64,000 bases of DNA from Gigantopelta aegis (Eukaryota > Mollusca > Gastropoda > Neomphalida > Peltospiridae), in assembly GCF_016097555.1 (NCBI RefSeq), contig NC_054706.1:74306674-74370673 (forward strand), read 5' to 3'. Positions 27,690-63,850 of the stretch are shown piece after piece. Within the stretch, counting starts at the first letter, position 1, and each line of letters opens with the position of its first letter. The notes under the pieces are model-generated. The model was not told the origin of the DNA. It saw nothing but the letters and a program-made list of their open reading frames with translations, and did no database searches. The position numbers and the translations under genes are program-made.

Positions 27690-28265
27690 CCAGAAACGTT
27701 GCTATTGGTGATTTTAATAATCGTGTTGGAACTGGTCATAACTTAACTGCACACGACATACTATTAAACAGTAATAATATTGTCTGAAATGTGTCAATAG
27801 AGCTAATATTTTATACCTTACGCCATTAAATGTGATACAAACAGTGAGAAATAGTGTATTGGCGGCCATTTTGAATTGTGACCAAACCTGGCCAATAGGG
27901 GTCACTGCCAGGTTGGTCCTACATCACGTTTTACTCTACACATTGATGGCCTAACTACATGTAAAGCTGCATGTTAGTATCACATTTTGCACTAATATAC
28001 CATAACTCTACTACACTATATCAGAACTATCAGTCCATGTTTGATCGAATGCTGTAGAATACTTTCCTGGTACTGATATCAGACCACGCAACAATGAAGG
28101 CAAAATGATAAATAATCAAGTTGGTAAGAAACTTTTAGATCCCTGTAAAACAGTGGGCTACGACATTTAAATGGTTCACATTCTGGAAATACGACTTTTT
28201 ATATTGCAAATGACACTTGACTCAGACTGTGGGTAACTGTTTTTCAGATCATTCGTCGTGGTTAT
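27690..28265 (+). pseudogene. Weak LINE endonuclease remnant
   Basis: NVAIGDFNNRVGTGH (about 27697-27741) resembles the GDFNxR motif of LINE APE-type endonucleases. KKLLDPCKTVGYDI near 28130 fits the following 'LLDLCK' stretch of such proteins. Between them the frames are broken, and unrelated repeat-like sequence lies at 27830-28090. Confidence 0.45.
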
Positions 28266-28274
28266 ATATCCATA

Positions 28275-28510
28275 AATTTCAGAGATTTTAGGGTATATAA
28301 TTTTTCCCACGAAATATATCCATAAACTTCCAAGATTTTAAGGTACGTAATTTTACCCTACGAAATATATCCATAAACTTCCAAGATTTTAAGGTACGTA
28401 ATTTTACCCTACGAAATATATCCATAAACTTCCAAGATTTTAAGGTACGTAATTTTACCCCACGAAATATATCCATATATTTCCAATATTTGAGGGTACG
28501 TAATTTTATC
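28275..28510. repeat. 51-bp minisatellite, about 4.5 copies
   Basis: AAATATATCCATAAACTTCC and AAGATTTTAAGGTACGTAAT recur at 51-bp spacing, with diverged outer copies. The - strand frame stays open because 51 is a multiple of 3. It is not considered coding. Confidence 0.85.
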
Positions 28511-28639
28511 CTCCGAACCCTCTGGCAGAATACCTGCTAATTGTGGGGCGCTGGTTGGGACGAGGGGTGGGGTGGTGTGTGTGTGGGTCTATCCCATGTT
28601 TTAGGTCAGGTCAGGTCAAAGGGTTTAACGTGCACATTC

Positions 28640-31600
28640 AGAGCAAGCTGTTTTAGCGCACGCCTGTCATAGGCACAGAAGTCGGCATCGAACAGGATTT
28701 TCTTAAATGGTGGAAATGGAGTTGAATCCGTAGCTTGTTTAATTAGATATGGTGTGTGGCACTCGACTGGCTAATTGATATGGTATAGTGCCACTGGCGT
28801 GTTGTCTATACCTACTTCTATTTCTATTTTACTAGCTTTAGTGGCGAAAGAATCATTAAGATTTTGATTGGTTTTGAATACTAGTCCTGGTTTAGCTATG
28901 ATAGGAGTGAGTTCCTGAACTGGGTGATCTAGTTTAAGAGAGTGGATTTTTAGATGATAATTAAGGTGTTGAAGATTGCGACGATATTTCAGTGGCATAA
29001 TGTTAAACTCAACTTCTAAGCTCTGTCCGCTGGTATTTGATGGAACTTTAGCTATGATTCTAAGAGCTTGGTTTTGAATAACATCTAATTTATGTAACAG
29101 TTTGGGGGCGGCGCAACTGTAGGCTTGGGCTCCATAATCTATTCTGGAGAGTATGCATGCTTTGTAAACCATAAGCATTGCCTCTGTTTGCGCTCCCCAA
29201 CTGGTACCTGAGATGGCTCTTAACAAGTTTAGAGTATTTTTTGAGTTCCTGACTATGTCATTGATATGATCACTAAAGGTTAGTTTTGAGTCAAAAGTTA
29301 CACCTAGAAATTAAAAAATGTTGACTCCAGGAATTATTTTATCACCTGATTTAAGTTGGTGATTATCTGATTTATTGACTTTATTAAAAAGCATATAGAC
29401 AGTTTTAGTTTCTGATAGTTTAATGCCCCAGTCCAGGGCCCATTTGTTAAGTCTATTTATATCAGCTTGCATTAGGTGAAATAAATTAGTGGTTGTGTTG
29501 CCTGTGCGCCAGATGGCGCAATCATCGGCAAATAGTGCTGTGTTTAATGGCGTGGTCGTTTTTGTTTTTCCTTTAGCATTAAGTGCTTTAGTTATGTCAT
29601 TAATAAAACTGTCGAATAAGGTTGGTGAGGGGACCGAACCTTGTGATATGCCATTAATTATTTCGGTTCTATCTGAATAGTGACCGTTCACTCTAACTGA
29701 GATTGATCTATTATGGATGAAATTGTTGATAAAATTAAACATATTATCTTTAATACCGTTACTCTGTAGTTTATTTAGTAGACCTTGACGCCATACCATA
29801 TCAAAAGCTTTTTCAATATCTATGAATATTGTTAAGACCGTATGAGATTTTCGAAATGCATCATTAATACTATTTTGTAATCTAACTATTAGATCTATTG
29901 TTGAATGTTTAGTTCTAAATCCGCTCTGTACATTAGTTATTAGGTTATTTTCGAGTAGGTAATTGTTGAGTCGTTTATTGATAATAGTTTCTAAGGTTTT
30001 GCATATGTGGGACGTGAGTGTTATCGGTCTATAACTCACCGGGAGGGAATGGTCTTTTCCCGCTTTAGGGAGACTAAAGCATTCTGCATGTTTCCACGCA
30101 GTGGGCATTTGACCCTCCCTCTAGATTCGGTTAAAGAGCGATAACACTACTTTTCGGGCTAGGTCCGGCATATGCTTGAGTAATGTGTAACTTATTTGAT
30201 CAGGCCCGGTGGCAGTACTTTTTTTTTTTAGCTTTAAGAGCTGTTTTTAATTCTAACATTGTTATCGGTTTATTAAATTCTAAATTATCAGTAGTTGGGT
30301 GATTTGCTGTTTTAGTATCATTAGTTGGTAGAGTGTTATCTTTCTTAAGTTTCTCCAAAAATTGTTTAGGAACATTTTCGTTGCTACTGTTTTTACTGAA
30401 CATTTTACTGAGAAGGTCGGCCTTTTGTTTATTAGTAGTTGCTGTTTTATGTTTTTGAAGGACTGTGGAATTAGCGCGTTGTCCTTAAATAGCCTTAATT
30501 TTTTCCCACATTTTTTTAATAGATGTTCTATTGTTAATTTCACCGCAAGATTTATGCCAGCTGGCTTGTTTAGCATTGATGATAAGCTTACCTACTTCGT
30601 TTTTGGCTATTTTATATTTAGTGTGGTAGTCTTGTTTCCTTGTTTTTTTTATAAAGTTTACGCATATTGTTCCTAAAGCCACATTTAGATTTAATTTCGT
30701 CCGTCCACCAGTTAACTGGTCTATTTTTATTGAAGGGTTTAGATTTAGGAATATTCTTTTCAGCTATTTCTATTATTTTATTAGTAAATTTATTAGTGGC
30801 GTCGTCAATGTTTAAGCTATTTTCTAACTTAATTTTGCTACAGTCACTTGTAAAGTTAGCTACACTAAATTTAAATTTAAATATAAATTTTTCTTCTGTA
30901 TAAGTAGTATTACATTTATAGCTGGGGAGGTGGTCGCTGTTGAGAGCTTCTAACACCTCCCATTGGGCGTTTGCACCTATATTGTTAGAGGTGATGGTTA
31001 GGTCGATGGCGGATGTGCCCAGATAATCGTGGATAAAAGTAGTACTTCCATCGTTGAGACATACTAGATTGTGTGTATTGATGAATTCCTCTAGTATGTC
31101 TCCCTGTGCTTCGGAGTGCAGACCTCACCACAGTGTGCTATGACAATTAAAATCTCCTACAAGAATCAAGTCATTGTTTGAGCTTATGAGTTTATTGTAG
31201 TCTCTTAACGTTAGTTGATTATGGGCTGTTCCCGGTGGGCTATAAACATTGATGACGTCAATAGGCATTTTATCGTTTTGTATAGTAAGTCCTTGGACTT
31301 CTAAGTTTGTATTAATAGAATCGTATTTAATTTCAGTATGAGGTATGGTATTTTTAATTAATGTGGCTATTCCACCTCTGGTGCTGTTATCTCTATTTTT
31401 ATAGTAACTAGTATATCCTGGAATTTTAAATACTTTAGTTGTTTTATTTTTATTTTTAGTGCCGATTCCTAGCCATGTTTCTTGTAGGCAAATTATATCT
31501 GGCTTGATGTTGCTGGTGCTAATTAGTTGAATGAGTTCAGCACCATGTCCCATTGAATGGAGGCCTTTAGCGTTCCATTGGAGAACGCTAAGGCCCTTTT

Positions 31601-31649
31601 TTACTGTGTTGATATTATTAGTGGGGGCGTGTGGAGACGTATCTCCCAT
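28640..31649 (-). pseudogene. LINE ORF2: APE endonuclease plus reverse transcriptase, broken
   Basis: The N-terminal endonuclease (SVLQWNAKGL, PDIICLQETWLG, LILVGDFNCHSTLW) meets a TGA in place of a sense codon at about 31125. After frameshifts the RT has FSLPKAGKDHSLPVSYRPIT, QSGFRTKHSTID, FIDIEKAFDMVW, ISQGSVPSPTLF and catalytic FADDCAIW (about 29512-29535). A C-terminal block TSWGAQTEAML, LSRIDYGAQAY, LDVIQNQALRI is typical of jockey/I-superclade elements. No separate RNase H domain is visible. Confidence 0.85.
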
Positions 31650-31699
31650 TACGCAGCCCCGAAATTATGGTTGATGATATATATTGTTTAGTTTTAGCT

Positions 31700-32915
31700 T
31701 TAGTTTTTAGAGGTTACCAGGCTGGATTTAATATTAGACATTTCCTGAACTAGTTGTTCGATGATAGTTTTGAGTTCTCTAACCTGAGTTTGGTCAGTAG
31801 TTTTAAGTTTGTCGGCATATGTAATTGATTGAGTAACTGTTTCTGGTTTAGAAAAAGTAGGTCTGCTTTGCTTGGTTTGACTAACTTGGTTTAGTTTGTT
31901 GTTAAGTTGTCGAAGAGCCCTCTGGTAGTGATGGCACCTGGGGTCATGTGCCATGTGCCTATTAAGACAGTTTGCGTATTGTATCGGTTGGGTACAGGGG
32001 GAGTTTCTAGAACTCCATGGATGTTTTTGACCACATCGGCTACAAGTAGGAGGTTCCCTATAATGTCGGCATTTTGCAGCCCCGTACCCCCACTGTTGGC
32101 AGTGTTGGCATTTGCTTGGCTTCCTTTCAAATGGAAGAATCTGATGTTGGCGACCATTGATGACGATGTGCATGTCGCCGGTGGTGGTGGTTGATATAAG
32201 AACATATCCAGTTGACCACGTGGTGGCATCGTGAATCTCAAGGTGGGAGTTATCAGTTTTGAGGGTGGCTAAAGCTGTGGCCTGAGGTGGAAGTGGGTGA
32301 AGTTTGGCTAGCCACTTGTTGGTAAGGTTCAGTGGAGCGGTTAGGTTGGAATGGGTGTTAGTTGGTGGGGTAGGGGTGGATTGGCATGGTGGTTGGCTGT
32401 GCTGTTGTGGCTGGTGCTTCAAGCTACCAGTGGCCTTGATGGTCACCTCTTTATAAAATGGCCCAGGGGACACTGAGGTGTTGTTAGTGGGTGGGTTCAC
32501 TACCTTATTGGGCACTTTGGTGGTTTGACTGGTTATCTCGACTCTTTTTTCTGGTTGAGATGGTTTATTTATTTTAGTTTTGACGAAGGACGCAGCTGTC
32601 AGTGGTTTGGTGTGTTTTTACTGGGCTCCTAACTTTTCTATTGCAAATTTGCTTGTTAGCAACTACTCTGAACGAGGGACTGGCTTTTTTTACCCGAGTT
32701 GGAGTCGTTTTGATGGTTCGGCTTGCTACCTGTTGCGCCAGGTTGCTTAGTGGCGGACCTCATGTTGTCTGTTACGTCAGTACCGGCTTGTTGGTTACTG
32801 AAGGTGAACGGTGTCTTGCCGGTGGACGTCGCGCCTTCTTTTAGGCCTGCACTGTCCGCTCTGATGATTTGACAGCTGAATGTTGATGTTGTAGGTGTCT
32901 TTGCAGTTTTTTCCA
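31700..32915 (-). pseudogene. LINE ORF1: CCHC zinc-knuckle nucleic-acid-binding protein, broken
   Basis: 31700-32515 encodes a Pro/Thr-rich N-part and three Cys/His clusters (CQHCQQWGYGAAKC, CSRCGQKHPW, YANCLNRHM), as in ORF1 of jockey/I-like LINEs, then a Lys/Gln-rich tail. The frame continues upstream of 32515 without ATG. The likely true start, MEKTAKTPTTSTFSC near 32915, lies in another frame closed by a stop at 32656, so the ORF is frameshifted. Confidence 0.75.
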
Positions 32916-36472: not shown

Positions 36473-38827
36473 TCAGCGATTACATTGGATGTGCCCTTGA
36501 TATGTCCAATGGTAATTGGGTATTCTTGCAGAGGAAGACTCCATCTCAAAACTCTCTGGTTGGAGGCTTTCATTAGGATGGTCCAGTCCGTCTTCGTCTT
36601 CTTGGAACAGCACAGCTCCAGCACCCACGTCACTGGCACCCACAGCTAGCTTGAACGGCATTCGGTAGTCTGGTGCTGCCATCGCGGGAGACGAGTAGCG
36701 CCTCTGCTTGAGCCGGTTGAATGACTTCTTGCATTCACCTGACCAATGGAACTTCGTTTCCCTCTTTTTCAGCGTCGCACGTTTTCCAGGTCTTCTCCGA
36801 CAGGCATGCTGTCGAATCTGTGTAGCGTTGGGTTCCAAGCGCACATCTTGGCTTAAGGTATTGGTAACCGTTGGAAGGTCCCGACAAATGGAAACATTGT
36901 CTTGTATCAATGTAGTCAGCTTTGCTTGCTGGGGGTTCAAGTCTGCTAAAATCTGGCTGTTGGCCAACTTGATCTCCGCAGTCTTCACGTCATCACAGGA
37001 AATTGAGTGTCTCTCAATTTGGACCGGTCTCTCTGGAACTATCGGCAGTCTGTCAAAATAACCTTTTAGCAAATTGATGTGACAATACCTACTTTTCCTA
37101 ACCCTATCAGGAGTGTTTATCACATACCCTGTCTCATTAACTCGTTTGAGCACAACATAGGGCCCGAAATACCTGTTCTGCACAAAACCCCGTTTAATGG
37201 GAAGGTACAGCAGCACCTTATCCCCTGGTTTAAATTCCCGACTCTTAGCCTTCCTATCAAACACTGATTTTATTTTGCTCTGAGCATGGCTCAGTTGCTT
37301 CCTAGCTAGTTCGGTCGCCGGCAACCTCCTATCCCTAACTCTTTTATTCATCAATACTCTCTCAGTTAACAATGTAGTGCGAACTGCCAACAATTTTGGA
37401 TCAGCCCCCTGCTCTAGAACTAACTCTTGTCTATTACAAGGTAAGGCCCCTCTATCAAACACAACTGGTTCAATTCCCCTCTGCGGGAGATCAACAGGTT
37501 CCACCACATTTAATTTGTCAGTTGACTTATCTACCATTTTACTGATAACATCATCCACTCCAATTTCATGGCTCACACACGTATCAGACAAATCACAAAT
37601 ATCCTCTGCGTCTTGTGCTAACCTACTGGTCATATCCCTAGTCATTACACACGCAGAATATTTAATCTCATCAACCTCACACTCTTCTATTGGTAACATG
37701 CTGTCTTTAATTAACAGTTGGTCACATTTCGGCTGACAACACTGACTAGTCAAATCATTTCCCAACAAAACTCCTATGTTTTCAACAGGCAAGTCCTTCA
37801 CAACACCCATAATGACTGGTCCCGTCACAAACTTCGAACACAAGAAAACCTTATGTAACCTGACAACCATATTTTCTCCAGTAACCGAGGTTAAAACCAA
37901 ACTACGTCCTATGTCTGAATTTTCAATACCAGCTAAACACTCTTGCGTGATCAAACTCTGACTACACCCGGTATCTCTATAGATTGATATAGCCTTAGGA
38001 CTCAATTCTTGTTTCACATCACAAACCATACCAGTGGACACATACGGGTTTACTTTCTCTGCCATGGGACTAACCATTAACTCTCTCGCTAACGGAGCTG
38101 ACCTCACTAAACCGACCACTTGCGCATTATCGCGTTTCCTTTTAAAACAGTCCCCGATAAGATGGTTATCCTTTTTACAGTAACTGCACTGTGGACGAAA
38201 AGTTCGTGCATTGGCTGATAATGCAGGCCTATCCTTACTTTGCCCACCAGGTGCATTCCTTGCCTGACTAGCTGACCAACTAGATGACTCTCCCCGATAG
38301 TTACTTTCCCGGGAAAAACTTGGCTGAAATTTCTTCTTATCACCCTGTTGTAAAGAGCTACCCGGTACTGCTTGAGCTTTGTGTATTAACACGTAATCAT
38401 CTGCCACTATGCCTGCCTCCTTTATCTTTTTGACATCACGAACCTCTAAATGAATACGTAAGCTAACTGGTAATCCATTTTTAATGTCCTGTAAGATCAA
38501 CAACTCCCGTAACTCGGTATATGACTCTACCTGATGAGACACCACCCATTTATCAAACATCCCTGCCTTCTTAGCCACAAACTCACTATAAGACTGACCC
38601 TGCGTTTTTCTCAACTCGCTATACCGTAAACGATAATCCTCAGGTCGTAATTCATACGCCCTCAACACTGCAGACTTAACTAGGTCGTACTGACTTGCTC
38701 GCTCATCACTCATTGAATTATAAGCTATACTAGCCTTCCCCTTAAACTTAGACACGGCTAACAATGTCCACTTAGACTGCGGCCAATTTAGCTGCTTAGC
38801 GGCCCGTTCAAAAAGTTGAAAGAACAT
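36473..38827 (-). pseudogene. Long fused frame: gag-protease-integrase C-terminus-RT N-terminus-RNase H fragments (784 codons)
   Basis: A single open frame holds: capsid-like gag with a 24-residue segment (YRLRYSELRKTQGQSYSEF and neighbours) absent from the other copies; zinc knuckle CSYCKKDNHLIGDC (about 38150-38190); protease YRDTGCSQSLIT (about 37950-37985); integrase C-terminus FKPGDKVLLYLP and YFGPYVVLKRV; the RT N-terminal lead (TVTNTLSQDVRLEPNATQIR); an RT/RNase H linker (FHWSGECKKSFNRLKQ); ASDVGAGAVLFQEDE; and the end of RNase H. Deletions removed the integrase core, the RT palm and part of RNase H without closing the frame. The protein cannot be a functional polymerase. Confidence 0.85.
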
Positions 38828-39116
38828 GCTACCTCCTGATCGTCAAATACAGGCACTGATCTATAAGCCTCCGACATGTTAAAACCATTTCCTGCCTCAC
38901 GTCTAACTTGACAGACGAATTCTTGGATCGAACGAACATAGAAAGCGCAAGACACTAGGAATCTGGAGGCATGGCCCCCACCCCCGAAAAGTTTGAAATC
39001 TAGAGGCGCTGAAATACCATTTTGCAGCCATTTTAGAGAGGTTACATACTTAAAACGTCAGTATCAATAACAGGTAAATTGTAAATTGGTTTTTAAATAA
39101 AAATTGTTTAGCTACA

Positions 39117-42450: not shown

Positions 42451-43957
42451 TATACTCTGTCAAAAAAGAAACGCATAGGTGATAGGGAAAGAAGAAAAGT
42501 GTTTGATTTTACAAAGTATCATTTTTTTGTAAAATGTTGCTGAATGACCATGTTTGTTAATGTTCCTGGAATGGGACAGCATGCCCAAATGCACCCTAAA
42601 ACAAATTTAACGCACGTTATGGCACGTTGTGCGACAATTGCAGGATATCGGCGTGAAATGGTCAGATTTTGGCGAATGCACGTGGCACTCGGGGAAAATA
42701 TTGGGGGTAGTGATGGGTATTTAAAGCTGCAATGCTCGCAATGATGCCTCATTTCCATTTCAACGTAGACGAGTTACAAGATGCCAAGACTAAACGTGCC
42801 GAATTGAAACATTGCAATAGACCGCCTCCAGTTAGGTGAATCGCAGTCAGCAGTCGCACGCCACATGAACGTCCATCAGAGCACCATTTCACGTCTCTGG
42901 GACAGGTACGAGCAGTTTCAATCAGCTGAAGACCGGTCCAGAAGTGGAAGACCTCGCATAACAACTGCAGCACAAAATCGCTACGTCCGGGTTCTGCACT
43001 TGCGTCACCGAACTGCCACAGCAACGAACACTGCTGGACGCATACCTGGTTTGAGAAGGGCGTCTGCACAAACCATTCGGAACCGGTTTACCAGCTGGTT
43101 TACGGGCTAGGAGACCGTCCTGCGACGTCAACATCGACATTTATGTGTTCGCTGGTGCACGAATGTAGAGAGGTGGAACTTGGGAAACTGGCGGCGAGTT
43201 TGGTTCAGCGACGAGTCATGTTTCCTTCTACAGCGACGTGATGGACGACGTGTTTACAGATGCCGCAATGAACGTTTTGCCAACAACTGCATCGCCCAAG
43301 TTGACAGATTCAGTGGGAGAAGTGTCATGATATGGGGACCCATCTCATACACCGGCAGACGTGATTTTGTGTTTGTACAAAGCAACCGGACAGTTGTACG
43401 CTACCGGGATGAAATTCTTCGCCGTCACATGCTTCCCATTTTGGATCGACAGAGAGCTCTCTTTCAGCAGGACAATGCCAGGTCGCATACGACACGTGTA
43501 ACAATGGATTTCCTACAGAATGAGAACATTAATGTGCTGCCATGGCCATCAAGATCGCCAGATCTCAATCCCACTGAACATCTATGGGACAAACTGAACA
43601 GACGTGTACGCCAGCGTTACTCGGAGCCTCAGACGCTTCCGCAACTGTCACATGCACTGCATGGAGAATGGGCTAGGATTCCACGTGCCCGGATTCAGAG
43701 ACTCATTCAGTCTATGCCAAGGAGATGTCGTGCAGTGATTGCTGCTGCTGGTGGCCACACAAGATACTAATTTCAGCGCTCTCATGCTTGGTGACGAAAA
43801 CGCCTCCACTGCCGTCAGTCCATAGCAAGAACATTGTCACATACTCATGTCGAATTTGACTGTAATACGATCATAAATAACGAAATTATGCCACTTTGTA
43901 TTAAAGAGATAATTCCACGACTGTTTCGCCTATGCGTTTCTTTTTTGACAGAGTATA
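42451..43957 (+). mobile_element. Tc1/mariner-type DNA transposon, intact ends, broken transposase
   Basis: Perfect 29-bp terminal inverted repeats begin TATACTCTGTCAAAAAAG at 42451 and end with the complement at 43957, consistent with TA target duplication. The element is 1507 bp, typical for Tc1-like transposons. Confidence 0.93.
42781..43770 (+). pseudogene. Tc1-like transposase (DD34E) pseudogene
   Basis: An N-terminal helix-turn-helix region (QSAVARHMNVHQSTISRLWD and GRPRITT) is followed by a catalytic part with FSDESCF, FQQDNARSHTTR and SPDLNPTEHLWD. 34 residues separate the second Asp and the Glu, so it is DD34E. A TGA at 42805-42807 shortly after the presumed start, and a frame break near 43100-43110, inactivate it. 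The second half (43180-43770) is open. Confidence 0.9.
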
Positions 43958-56900: not shown

Positions 56901-59900
56901 ACACGACTTTTAACACATTAAAAAAATATATGTAGTATAAATCAAAATCAAAATCCATCATCAAAATGCAGTAAGTGTAATCAAAGACTATTTTAACAAA
57001 GTAGGCCACAATAGTATATCAGCTTTATGTTATGTAGTAACATTTAATGTGTGTATTTTGACCCAGTATTTTAACAAAGTAGGTTCTAATAGTATACCAG
57101 CTTTATGTAATGCAGTAACATTTAACTTGTGTATTTTGACCCAGTAACAGCATTCACAACTTCCACCGAAAGTCCCCACTAGAAATGACAATTTTAGTTA
57201 TTGGCTATTAAAGGTATTTAAAAACCCCACAATACCAAAGACACAATAAACACGTGGCACGTGAGCCGCCCTACCTGCTTGTCATCAACATAGGCCCTAA
57301 TTCGTGCATATCCAGTGTGTTGTCTACCGTACAAGTGTTCGTCAATACGCTGCTGAGCGTCCCCGACAACGAGGAAAGCACTACACACACTGCACACTTC
57401 CAGTGTCTTTTCGGGCTCAGCCCACTGGGGCCCGGAAGGGTTCTACAACATGAAGAAAAGGACAGAACATTACGACCTCATTGAAGGACACTCACCTTGA
57501 ATTTCTCAACCGTGGCTCGCACAGTAGCATAGCCCGCATGCTGCTTGCCGAGTATGTGCTCGTCCTGCCGCTGGGGCATGTCTCCAACGATCAAGAACGC
57601 ACCGCAAACTTCGCACACTGACATTTGTTTTAGCGGCGGTAGCTCGGGCATTGGTTGCTGTCAAGTAAAAAAGACAGATCCAGTAATTAATCTACGAAGC
57701 AGGGTGGGTCTGTGCGTAGTGTAAAACATACCATTTTGGGGTGGGGTTTTTTAACAGATGAAATTTGGGTGCTTAACAGTTCTGATGTTCTTAAAGCCAT
57801 GTTTTACAGATAAACTGAGTGGTTATAACAGTCCGGTTGTTTGTTTCAAAGCTACATTTTACAGATGAACTGTGGTGTATACAACAGTTCTGTTCAGGAG
57901 TTGCAGGTTTCATAGAACACATCCACACAAGCACTGTTTGATTGCAGATGGCAACCAAATTGCTATATTACCGAGTAAACTGACAGCTGAATAAACAAAC
58001 AAGTCTGCACAAATACTCTTTGATGACAGACGGCAATGAAATTGCTGCATCACTGTGTAATCCGACAGCTGCATAAACAGTCTTCTGAAGATGGCTGTGT
58101 GTGAAGGCTACCAGGCACCTTAACTCCTGCCACGCACTGGCTCTCATCAACTTAGCCACTTCAAATTCACAAATAGTAAGTTTGCAGTTTGTCACTTCAT
58201 TATCATGAAGATCACTTTTAGTCGCAGTCCTCCCCCACTTAGGCACTTCCAACTCACGATGGTTCAGTGGCAGTTCTCAAGTTGCTCACTTCAAACTCAA
58301 CGAAGCTTTGAACTTTGTTACTTCAAACTCATGATGGTTGAACAAAAACACTCAATTTGGTTACTTCACATTCATGACAAATGGTCTGCGAAACACTGCT
58401 TCAACGTATTCATTTCCTTTCAGGAGAAATTCACCATTTTTAAAGTACAAGTAAAACTATTTTTCTTATTTCAGAAGAAATACTTTCTCGTGTTAAACTT
58501 TAATGAATTTAGGGAAATGTCAAGTTGAACTAATCGACCCAATATAAAACTATGTAGATTAATTACTGTGATCTCTCTTTTTCACTAATTCAGATCTCCT
58601 CCAACTTGTCAATGACAAATCTACTAATCACAATATAACACAAATGGAATAAAACATATATACATGCAAAACATTGCACATTCATCTCACATTTTATGAA
58701 ATCAATGTGAACGGGTTTATTCTTGAACTGCAGTCAATAACAGACAATTCCCACACAATCGTTTTGGCTTCGTACACAAAAAAATATAGTATATCCAACA
58801 GCTATTTCTTAAATATTATATCTGAACTATGGTATTTTTTTCTTTTCTTTTTCAATTTAAATTTTTTTACTAGACTCTTATGCATCCAGCTTTACATTCA
58901 GAAATGTCATCATTGAACCAAGTTTCCAATGTGAAACTTGACATTTTAAACCTCCATTTTTCACAATTTTACAATTAAAACTGTAAGAAAGCAACTAACA
59001 TAACATACTCTTGATGTGTGTAATATTATGGGAGATCTTAATGAGTCTAATTACCATAATTAAATTTACAGTAGAACTAATTAATAGTTTTAAAAATATA
59101 AAAAAACACAACAAAAAACCCACTCTACAATCATGATCACTGATGTTAGTTTATGACGCTTTTATAAAGTTTATTTTCACTTTCACTCGACTATGAGTAA
59201 TCCCAACCATCATCTTCTTTAAAGGTTGTATTATTAGTTATTTTTGGCAAATACATCTTTTTAAACATCTACAACTTTCATTAAATAATGACATGTACAA
59301 CATGTTTTAAAAGAAATATTTTAAAATTTTAAAAAATCAATCACATATTTTTGTTACATCATCAATAACATTTACACAATTATAGACTGTTGTTTTCTTT
59401 TGATATAGCAATACACAATTTAAATATGAATACCAGTCAGTACATAGCCAGGCGTGGCAGAGTGTAAAAAAACTAATAGTGGTACGGCTCGAGGTTGCAA
59501 GACTCTTCTTTCAAATACACCTGTGAAGGGCATTTTTGCCGCCCCTGGAGCGAGTTTGATTGTTATTCTACCAGATTCTAGTGTTCACAGAATCAAGATA
59601 GATAACTCATGTGAATTTTGATAGCAGTCGAGAATGGGGTTTTACGGTAGTTTTTTAATCAAGAATGGGAATGAAATAGTAAATGCATTATCAAAAATTA
59701 TTTTAAAAAAAATTATACTGTAACATTTAAACAGCCTTGTCTGCACAATGTGGAAATCAGAACTATTTTGGTGTAATAAAACATAGTAATAATATAGTTG
59801 TTTTTAAATTTGAATGAATGACATGTTGCCACAATATCCATTTTCAGAATGCTGTTGGCGATTACTAAAGCAAATGTGTTTAAAGAAAATCAATCTAATG

Positions 59901-62900
59901 ACCAAAGCACTTCAAGTGAGTGCTCTACCAACTGAGTTAAATCCAGCCATCATTTAAGAAAATGTTAACAAGCCAGCACATACCACCTTTTATGTGCCGG
60001 TGTGGCTAAAAGGACTTTTGCTGATGACCTACATTATATGTAATACATAATAAATCAAAGAAACTTGCACAATGAAGGAAAACAAAACTCTAATTTTTAT
60101 AAAAACAACTCCAGGATTTTCATTGGAACAAATTTTGCTTTAGGCCAAACAAAAAAATAGGTGTGTTTCCAGTTGACCGACCGTCCCTAGTTTTACCCCC
60201 CCTCCCCGACCCTAATCTTAAACTGAAAAAAAGAAAAAAGAAAAAAAAAAGAGGACAACATCACCAAACAAGAGTATTTCCTTCCTTGCACACTGTTTAC
60301 GTACTATTATACGATACATTTTGCACATGTAATTCCCTTCCGAAAAACATCGAGAAATTATGGAAAAGCTTTTGTAATAGAGTTCCTTCCCCTGATTAGC
60401 TACCACCGAACAGCTTAGTCGGTCACGGAAGTAACCAAATGTACGAACATAGCCTTGGTACAGGTTATTTCGATTAAATATAATCGTATCAATTCAGCTT
60501 AATTCTCATCTTCACTTAAATCAACAGGTCTTATTATTAATGCATCTCAAATGTTTGCATAAAGTATTTAAATTAAGAACAACGAAATTAATACAAATGT
60601 CCCATTAATTTAAGGAAATACACAAACAGTGCATACCAATACTACTATTACTACTACTACAACAACGACAACAATAACAATGATAATGATGATAAATAAT
60701 AATAATAATTATTGGCCTTAGCTAATTTTCAGATATATTTAATATTTGTTTGAAAATTATTAAATGTAGTTAATTTAGTGATATTTTTTATTAGCCAGAT
60801 TAAAAATTGTATCCACTTTGTATAAAAATTAGCAATTGGCTAACGAGTCCTTAAAACTCTTAAATCTCCGAAATGCACCCGATATAGTAGAACCATTATT
60901 AGATTTTGGACAGAAAGTGTTTGAAATGCACCCGATATAGTAGAACCATCATTAGATTTTGGACAGAAAGTGTTTGAAATGCACCCGATATAGTAGAACC
61001 ATCATTAGGTTTTGGACAGAAAGTGTTTGAAATGCACCCAATATAGTAGAACCATCATTAGATTTTGGACAGAAAGTGTTTGAAATGCACCTGATATAGT
61101 AGAACCATTATTAGATTCTGGACAGAAAGTGTTTGAAATGCACCCGATATAGTAGAACCATCATTAGGTTTTGGACAGAAAGTGTTTGAAATGCACCCGA
61201 TATAGTAGAACCATTATTAGATTCTGGACAGAAAGTGTTTGAAAATTTCTGAGAGCAAACATTTACTGATAATACAATAGAAGTACATGTAGTACAACAA
61301 TAAAACAAAGAAGGAAAAACACCTACCATTTCGAGTTGGCGCCTTTCTTCACGTAACTGGTCACACAGCTTCATAACACCTTGAGCTTCTTCGACCTTAC
61401 CCTCACACCCCAGCTGTTCAGCCTAAAGAAATACACATTACAAACTTTGTACAAGCAACACAATCACGATTATATAACATTCTACCACAACTTTTAAAAA
61501 TACTTGATTCTAACTGACCGCCTACCTTAAATTAGGTTTTAAATTTATAACTACTTCTATCAATTAGGCTACTTTATTCAAGTACAAATATGAATCAGTG
61601 TTTGCAAACAATCATGATTGCAGAAACAAAAAATCAGCAATCTGAGAGTACCACTAATGGGCCTAACAAATTTCAGCAGCTCATAAGTTTCCAGAGACAT
61701 AACCGTCAAAATAAGGCAAATCTAATTAACGAGTTAATTACAACTGCTATGTACCTGATTAACGAGTTAATTACAACTGTTACATACCTGATTAACGAGT
61801 TAATTACAACGGCTACGTACCTGATTAATGAGTTAATTACAACTGCTACGTACCTGATTAACGAGTTAATTACAACTGCTACGTACCTGATTAACGAGTT
61901 AATTACAACTGCTAGGTACCTGATTAACGAGTTAATTACAACTGTTACGTACCTGATTAACGAGTTAATTACAACTGCTACGTACCTGATTAACGAGTTA
62001 ATTACAACTGTTATGTACCTGATTAACGAGTTAATTACAACTGCTACGTACCTGATTAACGAGTTAATTACAACTGCTACGTACCTGATTAATGAGTTAA
62101 TTACAACTGCTAGGTACCTGATTAACGAGTTAATTACAACTGTTACGTACCTGATTAACGAGTTAATTACAACTGCTATGTACCTGATTAACGAGTTAAT
62201 TACAACTGCTACGTACCTGATTAATGAGTTAATTACAACTGCTAGGTACCTGATTAACGAGTTAATTACAACTGTTACGTACCTGATTAACGAGTTAATT
62301 ACAACTGCTATGTACCTGATTAACGAGTTAATTACAACTGTTACGTACCTGATTAACGAGTTAATTACATAGACCCAGTGATTTTCCGCAATCGCGGAAA
62401 ACGAACGGAATTCACGGAATTCCCATTGTGAAATGGAATTACGATTTTCCACGAAGTAAAAAAAATTATTACCATTTTACTATTGTCACACACTGTAAAA
62501 CTGACGATTGGCCCATGTGCAGTACTATTGGCAAATGCGTAGTGTCGTATTTACCAGGGCTACATTCAGCCAGACCAAGCGGAAAAACGTCCACTAGACT
62601 GAATTATACGCTTCACGGTAATGACCACTTCGGGAACCAGTCAAAATATGTTTGCAAACGTTTAGCAAAAAACAGCTGGTTGAACGTTGCAACGTTACTT
62701 TATTTCCGCTGTGTCATGCACATACTTCACATTGCAGACGATGTTAGACTGTCAAAGCGGTGATAAAAATAAATGTTTATGTTTTGTTAACACTAAGCCC
62801 CGTTGAATAAAACAGTGCACTCAGTTGTTGGACAATTATGCTTTATGTATTTGTTATAACTGTAACCTCTGCTCCGATTTTTTGCTACTAATATGAAGGC

Positions 62901-63850
62901 CTACTTTGATTTAACAACAAATAGCACCGCATGTTGACGCCAGTCAATTTTCAGACCCTTATTTTGGTTTCATACAAAGTAAATAAAACCAAACCAACGG
63001 TATTTTTTTAATGATATATTTGACAATAGGTACTTTTTATGTTTTTCATCTTTTAAAACTTAAAAAATTAATATTTTGTCAAGAATTATGAAAAATTAAA
63101 AAGTAAACAGTGTTTTGTCTGCCTGTTATGTTAATTTGTCACAACTTATGTTATTTAAATTGTTAATTAGGCCAACATATTGTATCCTGAAACGGAAATG
63201 AAACGGAATTTACAAAAATATGAAACGGAAAAAAAATGTTTTTTTGAAACAGAAAACCACTGGGTCTAATTACAACTGGTATGTACCAGATTAACGAGTT
63301 AATTACAACTGCCATGTCCCTGATTACCAAGTTAATTACAACTGCCATGTACCTGAATAACAAGTTAATTACAACTGTCACATACCTGATTAACGAGTTA
63401 ATTACAACCATTACGTACCTGATTATCAAGTTAATTACAACTGTTACATACCTGATCAACGAGTTAATTACAAGTGTTACGTACCTGATTAATGAGTTAA
63501 TTACAACTGTTACGTACCTGATAGTTAATAACAATTGTTACCTGATTAACAAGTGAATTACAACTGCCATGTACCTGGTTAACAAGTTAATTACCACTGG
63601 CACGTACCTGTTTAACGAGTTAATTACCACTGCCACGTACCTCATAAACCAGTTAATTACACCTGCCACATAACTGATTAACAAGTTAATTGCAACTGCT
63701 ATGTACCTGATTAACGAGTTAATTGCAACTGCTATGTACCTGATTAACGAGTTAATTACACCTGCCACGTACCTGATTAACGAGCTCGTTGATCTTCTCG
63801 GTGAGCATCTCAGACTTGTCTTCCTTAGCACCGGGAAAGCTTCCATTTAG
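53995..63850 (-). CDS. LUC7L3: LUC7-like protein 3 (CROP-like), U1 snRNP-associated splicing factor, 5'-partial
   Basis: Exons in coding order are 63773-63850, 61327-61422, 57496-57657 (or 57275-57442), 56523-56770, 55619-55878 and 53995-54308. They join in frame (1158 nt, 385 aa plus TGA), and all are GT-AG. Visible order: the helical region ending EKINELVNQ then AEQLGCEGKVEEAQGVMKLC (human LUC7L3 has a near-identical stretch), the second C2H2 zinc finger VCEVCGAFLIVGD...HILGKQH, a Glu/Arg/Lys-rich coiled region, then about 170 residues of Arg-Ser repeats and an acidic tail. LUC7 proteins sit on U1 snRNP in the nucleus and influence 5' splice-site choice. The RS domain is typical of LUC7L3. 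The N-terminal part with zinc finger 1 lies beyond the right edge. Confidence 0.93.
54410..55290 (-). mobile_element. SINE interrupted by a MITE
   Basis: The left part at 54410-54553 (GGATGTCAAACATTTGGAAA, AGCAGCAAGGGATCTTTCC, CAGCACATACCACGACCTTT) and the right part at about 55191-55290 (GTACACTGGGTCCACTGAAG, tRNA-head complement CTACTGAGCTCGATCCCGCC) are one SINE split by 54554-55190. Confidence 0.8.
54554..55190. mobile_element. Non-autonomous DNA transposon (hAT-like MITE) nested in a SINE
   Basis: Terminal inverted repeats are CAGTGTTCGAGATTAA and the complement of CAGTGTTCAAGATTAA. Flanking GTCATAG repeats lie at 54547-54553 and 55191-55197. GGGATACC-type motifs occur inversely near both ends. 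No transposase is present. The hAT assignment rests on the CAGTG ends and a 7-8-bp duplication. Confidence 0.75.
55305..55510 (-). mobile_element. SINE body in a LUC7L3 intron
   Basis: CAACGACACCACTGGAGAAC, TTAATTGGATGTCAAATA, ATTAGCAGCAAGTGATCTTT, CAGACAGGAAAGCACATACA, GTGCACTGGTTGGAACAAG. Confidence 0.75.
57275..57442 (-). other. LUC7L3: Alternative exon B for LUC7L3 zinc finger 2
   Basis: 56 codons, phase 0 at both ends, with acceptor TTCATGTTGTAG and donor CAG|GTAGGG. It encodes NPSGPQWAEPEKTLEVCSVC then SAFLVVGDAQQRIDEHLYGR and QHTGYARIRAYVDDKQ. The four zinc ligands (C-x2-C, x15, H-x5-H) and spacing equal those of exon A. It shares GDAQ with human LUC7L3. About 55% of residues match exon A over the finger, so the duplication is old and under selection. 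Confidence 0.85.
57496..57657 (-). other. LUC7L3: Alternative exon A for LUC7L3 zinc finger 2
   Basis: 54 codons, phase 0 at both ends, with acceptor TTTACTTGACAG and donor AAG|GTGAGT. It encodes QPMPELPPLKQMSVCEVCGA, FLIVGDMPQRQDEHILGKQH and AGYATVRATVEKFK. It is closest to the vertebrate LUC7L3 finger (QM-VCEVCGAFLIVGD, ATVE). The 53 nt that follow (57443-57495) form the gap to exon B. Confidence 0.88.
57660..60860. other. LUC7L3 intron upstream of the alternative exons
   Basis: No coding sequence is supported. It contains degenerate 40-50-bp repeats of a GTTACTTCAAACTCATGATG type at about 58140-58390. A tRNA-like SINE head on the - strand lies at about 59900-59955 (complement of AACTCAGTTGGTAGAGCAC). 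The rest is AT-rich and unremarkable. Confidence 0.6.
60871..61242. repeat. 53-bp minisatellite, 7 copies, in a LUC7L3 intron
   Basis: GATATAGTAGAACCATNATT and ACAGAAAGTGTTTGAAATGC recur every 53 bp with only a few substitutions. The array ends 85 bp from the donor of exon 61327-61422. Confidence 0.92.
61722..63772 (-). repeat. 33-bp minisatellite built from a LUC7L3 exon end and 5' splice site, about 35 copies
   Basis: On the coding strand each unit is CTCGTTAATCAG followed by GTACGTAGCAG and TTGTAATTAA. The first 12 bases equal the last 12 bases of exon 63773-63850, and the rest equals the start of its intron. Nineteen full units and a partial one lie at 61722-62369. About 15 more diverged units lie at 63269-63772, directly next to the exon. 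The two blocks are separated by the insertion at 62370-63268. Confidence 0.93.
62370..63268. mobile_element. Non-autonomous DNA transposon inserted in the splice-site array
   Basis: 17-bp terminal inverted repeats TAGACCCAGTGATTTTC and the complement of TAGACCCAGTGGTTTTC (one mismatch) bound an 899-bp element. ATTACA lies on both sides (62364-62369 and 63269-63274), though the array itself could supply it. There is no transposase frame. CGGAA-rich motifs occur near both ends. Confidence 0.75.

Follow-up and report, generated by a model that had tools for sequence, protein, structure and literature searches.

Why should a 5' splice site be repeated dozens of times at the start of its own intron? 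The question arises at intron 5 of a LUC7L3 gene in the gastropod Gigantopelta aegis, the 3' part of which lies on the minus strand of a 64,000-nucleotide stretch of contig NC_054706.1 (RefSeq assembly GCF_016097555.1, positions 74,306,674 to 74,370,673). This whole stretch is called the window hereafter, and positions in and around LUC7L3 follow its numbering; the gene itself extends upstream on the same contig. As LUC7 proteins act with U1 snRNP in 5' splice-site choice, a preliminary description of the window had seen in this array a feature special to the gene of a splice-site selector, and had offered sensing of LUC7L3/U1 activity, buffering of U1 or neutral slippage as its possible meaning. 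According to the analysis presented here, the array is very probably a tolerated minisatellite spanning a splice site, of the type named 'mirage' in amphioxus, for which no role of the copies needs to be assumed.

Structure and origin of the intron 5 array

The protein assembled from the predicted exons finds its best database matches in LUC7L3 of Haliotis (77% identity at 78% query coverage), and by sequence similarity the gene is LUC7L3. Exon 5 (63773..63850, minus strand; LNGSFPGAKEDKSEMLTEKINELVNQ) ends in CTCGTTAATCAG|GTACGT, while exon 6 (61327..61422, minus strand) is entered through the acceptor TTTAG|GCTGAACAG, leaving an intron of 2.35 kb. Along the minus strand, 35 units of 33 bp follow one another from 63784 to 61734, after which a final partial copy reaches 61722. 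The first of these spans the genuine exon 5/intron 5 boundary and comprises the last 12 bases of the exon and the first 21 bases of the intron, so that the array consists of the real donor unit and 34 decoys within about 2 kb. Both the copy number of about 35 and the composition of the unit had been given correctly in the preliminary description. Only two units deviate in length, one of 24 bp and another, trimmed to 30 bp, at an inserted element.

Its sequence shows that the array stems from the donor of exon 5 of LUC7L3 itself. A chance origin is excluded because the window contains CAGGTACGT 17 times, compared to 0.21 expected occurrences; 16 of these lie inside the array, including the real donor. 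Moreover, an exact 20-base word taken from the unit occurs nine times in the genome, every time in this array. The repeat starts 12 nt inside the exon and its copies extend solely into the intron. No match was obtained with Rfam at gathering scores between 61300 and 64000.

An element of 899 bp (62370..63268, minus strand), bounded by 17-nt inverted ends TAGACCCAGTGATTTTC that are 94% complementary, separates the array into two blocks. On both sides it is flanked by TGTAAT (read by eye), which fits a 6-bp target duplication. Block A on the exon side (63269..63784, minus strand) is the more diverged one and contains 16 units, i.e. the real donor and 15 decoys, among them the 24-bp unit and, as its last, the 30-bp unit cut by the element; Tandem Repeats Finder (TRF) reports 16 copies with 82% matches. 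Block B (61722..62369, minus strand) is more uniform, with 19 units and partial copies at both ends (TRF: 19.5 copies, 94% matches), and is organized in a higher-order repeat of four units (132 bp) with zero differences in four successive comparisons. This uniformity and the higher-order repeat fit a younger age of block B than of block A.

Arrays of this type are often mis-sized in genome assemblies, and this general tendency is what speaks for regarding the array as an assembly artefact of a repeat. Here, however, the copies differ from each other, fall into blocks and are interrupted by an insertion, which makes such an artefact extremely unlikely, even if the copy number itself may still be off.

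Decoy donors, reading frame and decay

How well could the decoys compete with the genuine donor? The dinucleotide GT is kept in 32 of the 34 decoys and CAG|GT in 30; hence, the earlier estimate of about 32 CAG|GT decoys holds for GT and is slightly too high for the longer motif. The counts of 16 GTACGT and three GTATGT decoys given at the same time were exact. Among the former, 15 read CAG|GTACGT, identical to the real donor, and one reads GAG|GTACGT; further forms are CAG|GTACAT (eight decoys) and CAG|GTACCT (three). Predicted pairing with U1 is at least as strong as that of the real donor in 18 of the 34 decoys. With so many extra donors in about 2 kb, the locus offers a natural test of first-donor choice by the spliceosome.

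Use of any decoy would have the same consequence for the protein. The frame of exon 5 continues as GTA CGT GGC AGG TGT AAT TAA in the first added unit, so that every decoy is predicted to add an identical early in-frame stop codon within the first 21 added nucleotides. Exons 5 and 6 are joined without a gap, as judged from eight residues on each side, in all 120 homologues listed among 944 found, and the sequences of the window and of the displayed Haliotis proteins are identical across this junction. Because of the stop codon behind the decoys and the gapless junction in the listed homologues, a productive mRNA and a normal protein are, on the reading frame, dependent on the first donor and only on that one.

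The predicted strength of the decoys and the invariable stop codon are also arguments for an autoregulatory decoy array. Here, high LUC7L3/U1 activity would load several donors, intron-proximal decoys would be used, the resulting mRNA would be degraded or its product would end ahead of the second zinc finger, and the LUC7L3 level would fall. In addition, human LUC7L3 favours a class of donors that is strong on the exon side, as described in a review (PMC11732430). By our own comparison, decoys that keep CAG|GT and have lost the G at +5 might be seen as having moved toward this class. At position +5, which matters for pairing with U1, 13 of the 34 units carry a change (ten G to A, three G to C). 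No column has mutated more often, and only +8 (likewise 13 of the 34) equals it, a pattern that argues against maintenance of the decoys as regulatory donors.

This loss is part of a more general decay. Positions +4 and +5 of the donor form a CpG, with +4 being changed in four units. When 33 units were compared column by column, the two irregular ones being dropped, CpG columns proved 4.5 times as variable as the rest, with 27 of 132 cells changed compared to 43 of 957 (one of these 43 being a base of the inserted element and not of the unit). Transitions account for 23 of the 27 changes in CpG columns. Since +5 is changed in so many units, a large number of decoys are probably losing their pairing with U1, as CpG decay would cause if the DNA were methylated.

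Two further functions might be sought in the decoys. As a U1 sponge or intron-retention decoy, the array would tie up U1 on the growing transcript, its donors staying unspliced, and thereby slow down the removal of intron 5. The high density of near-identical donors is in line with this proposal, and decoy exons have been suggested to act similarly where introns of splicing-factor genes are retained. Those decoy exons and sites resemble the present ones in being intronic splice sites of a splicing factor that possibly remain unused, and differ from them in that the sites found here copy the intron's own donor. Given the decay of the decoys and the occurrence of similar arrays at other genes (see below), which count against a sponge just as they do against autoregulation, this function appears highly improbable.

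Alternatively, in a recursive-splicing ladder, CAG|GTACGT would serve as acceptor and donor in turn, and the intron would be removed stepwise without leaving a trace in the mRNA. The 30 decoys with CAG|GT and a branch-point-like TTAAC word in the unit (noted by eye) could be taken in its favour. Yet the candidate branch point lies very close to the CAG, the pyrimidine tract is weak (55% pyrimidine in the 20 nt upstream of the CAG in a typical unit vs 65% at the real acceptor), and the intron measures only 2.35 kb, so that stepwise removal can hardly be credited.

Donor-spanning arrays at other genes and in amphioxus

Is such an array peculiar to LUC7L3 intron 5? Two further donor-spanning arrays are present in the same gene upstream of the window (window numbering carried on), one in intron 2 (67566-67655; 25 bp in 3.4 copies, 73%) and one in intron 4 (65155-65346; 53 bp in 3.1-3.6 copies, 87-90%). 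Both begin inside the exon and differ in their unit from the intron 5 array. Their decoys are, by eye, mostly degenerate, which is again at odds with autoregulation. Intron 2 also carries a 36-bp repeat of 31 copies containing GGGTTAG.

Outside LUC7L3, donor-spanning arrays were found at four of 84 sampled donors. Three belong to the 50 sampled exon ends of myosin heads: a weak array of 24 bp in 6.4 copies with 67-72% matches (L028), one of 80 bp in 8.0 copies with 98% matches that spans the donor (L031, 1661-2300), and one of 98 bp in 2.0 copies with 89% matches (L059). The array of L031 is followed by a diverged copy carrying more exon sequence. The fourth was met among 20 kinesin exon ends (L076; 58 bp, 3.8 copies in the 361 bases obtained, 92%), with the donor placed by reading frame only. 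No donor-spanning array was seen at ten exon ends of GSPT1, the neighbour of LUC7L3 (positions approximate), or at four exon ends of a LUC7L-like paralogue, a fifth exon of which was outside the count. Hence, these arrays are not confined to genes of splicing factors, being present in myosin and kinesin genes and absent from the four LUC7L-like exon ends, and the idea that the array is special to a splice-site selector gene is not supported. A story specific to LUC7L3 would have misled.

The rate is one of sampled exons, and the way of sampling bears on it. For myosin, 50 of 80 matches were taken, namely the top 30 and 20 picked by hand from the remaining 50, a choice that passed over minor contigs, matches in very long open frames, the end of the list and several further rows; some of the sampled rows contain stops and may be pseudogenes, and donors were located by a crude score. 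The 20 kinesin ends were picked by hand out of 124 matches from approximately the first 35 rows, skipping minor contigs, stop-bearing rows and one other, with a view limited to 300 bases beyond the match end. LUC7L3 itself contributes ten donors, those of exons 8 and 9 being placed by eye. Counting was restricted to the donor side and makes no claim about donors versus acceptors. Arrays starting at or after the donor without a copy of GT (L064, L067, L077), short low-score repeats (L083 and the donor sides of L037 and L056) and arrays near or at the acceptor (L037, L047, L053, L055 and others) were left out of the count. Of those left out, the myosin loci L067 (1282-2169; 21 bp in 42 copies) and L064 (reverse strand; 38 bp in 6.1 copies) have arrays beginning at or just past the donor, and L037 (8-1496) has one of 43 bp in 34.6 copies ending at the acceptor.

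Donors are no preferred place for repeats in this sample either: across the 50 myosin loci, TRF coverage amounts to 8% at donor positions 0 to +20 compared to 14% at +120 to 300, 11% at +300 to 600 and 7% at +600 to 900, a contrast drawn from a small sample with 100 sampled positions in the 0 to +20 interval. Donor-spanning arrays thus look like the repeat-rich background of the introns, in cases where the unit happens to include the exon edge. The occurrence in myosin and kinesin genes, the lack of array enrichment at sampled donors and the mutated +5 column together speak against sensing of LUC7L3/U1 activity, and make the autoregulatory array very unlikely.

Comparable repeats have been described in amphioxus as 'mirages', tandem repeats at exon-intron boundaries that reportedly leave normal splicing undisturbed. 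They are listed for Adh3 (units of 10-72 bp), globins, troponin C and PGBD5, with the globin gene BflGb6 carrying units of 150-160 bp in six and three copies on its two haplotypes; many, though not all, of the units carry a splice signal, and copy-number differences between haplotypes, individuals or cells are described as well (PMC3087553, PMC3902484). The array studied here shares with them a boundary-spanning repeat that copies a splice signal and recurs at several genes. It differs in belonging to a mollusc and in repeating a 33-bp unit 35 times within a single intron, compared to three or six globin units. The likeness is known from the genomic sequence of one assembly. With this, the intron 5 array most likely belongs with the mirage-type minisatellites of amphioxus, and the four arrays outside LUC7L3 indicate that such minisatellites also exist in a mollusc. 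No report of a donor-spanning array in a mollusc was found in the literature searched, and the part of a clam haemoglobin paper that was considered contains none. A related proposal is the AGGT model of intron gain, in which splice signals are likewise carried by a tandem genomic duplication (PMC3443670). There, exon sequence is duplicated to create an intron; in LUC7L3, the start of a pre-existing intron has been multiplied.

How could such an array arise and persist? A tandem duplication would have captured the exon 5/intron 5 boundary with some sequence on either side. Since splicing from the first donor would still yield a normal mRNA, all further copies would be intronic and free to vary, i.e. 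to multiply via slippage or unequal exchange, to take up an insertion and to decay. The array would persist because the first donor prevails in actual splicing, and we infer that this donor is used almost exclusively. Duplications within coding sequence, unlike those spanning a donor, would be removed by selection. Such a history would account for a repeat that starts within the exon and grows outward, for its counterparts in other genes and for the decay of the copies. Neutral slippage, which had been among the options named at the outset, is the best reading, and to this extent the earlier interpretation is partly supported.

Several results weigh against a purely tolerated array, in addition to the small sample behind the coverage contrast. 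Donor columns outside the CpG are less variable than the remaining columns (4 of 231 vs 39 of 726 cells changed, p = 0.017), a p value that is too small as the units are related by descent; moreover, +7/+8 supply much of the difference. In block A alone, the same contrast amounts to 4 of 98 vs 32 of 308 cells (p = 0.066). For the two reasons given, the low variation is not read as selection; selection on decoy donors, sought through column variation, was not convincingly found. Secondly, three of ten LUC7L3 donors are spanned compared to the four of 84 elsewhere (Fisher 0.025); without the array that drew attention to the gene, two of nine remain (Fisher 0.10). An excess of donor-spanning arrays in LUC7L3 is thus possible.

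The two second-zinc-finger exons and further features of the window

Downstream of the array, LUC7L3 contains two versions of the exon for the second zinc finger, both on the minus strand and of phase 0: exon 7A (57496..57657, 162 nt), of A type, and exon 7B (57275..57442, 168 nt), of B type. Each exceeds the LUC7 family cut-off, and 7B lies 53 nt past 7A. Because an intron of 53 nt would hinder the joining of 7A to 7B, mutually exclusive use of the two exons is suggested. In Haliotis rubra and H. rufescens, A and B fingers are found in separate annotated isoforms, and both finger types occur together in proteins predicted for Tegillarca and the annelid Owenia. A tree of 29 hand-chosen finger segments, with only 43 columns, sets the B type apart by a branch with a support of 89/70 (97/94 with one further row). 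As the pairs of Owenia, Tegillarca, Haliotis and the window are each split across this branch, the duplication of the finger exon appears older than the separation of molluscs and annelids. No paper on mutually exclusive LUC7L3 exons in molluscs was found in the literature searched; for splicing specialists, this exon pair may matter more than the array.

The two finger types also enter a mixed proposal, in which the array was neutral at its origin and now sets LUC7L3 output. Leakage to the approximately 30 stop-leading decoys would rise as the array lengthens and as U1/LUC7L3 activity increases, copy number would act as a heritable dial, and the two zinc-finger isoforms would provide further tuning. 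This remains a quite improbable extension of the tolerated minisatellite preferred here.

Intron 6 of LUC7L3 holds a tandem repeat of 53 bp in 7.1 copies (60870..61244, minus strand; 95%), which lies away from the donor, lacks a donor copy and represents an ordinary intronic minisatellite. At 28264-28517, a 51-bp repeat is present in five copies, several with AAGGTACGT, with no exon visible alongside. Finally, long open frames extend over 28774-32617, 36476-38842 and 43111-43767, which we take, by eye, to be retroelement and Tc1-type transposase-like sequences.

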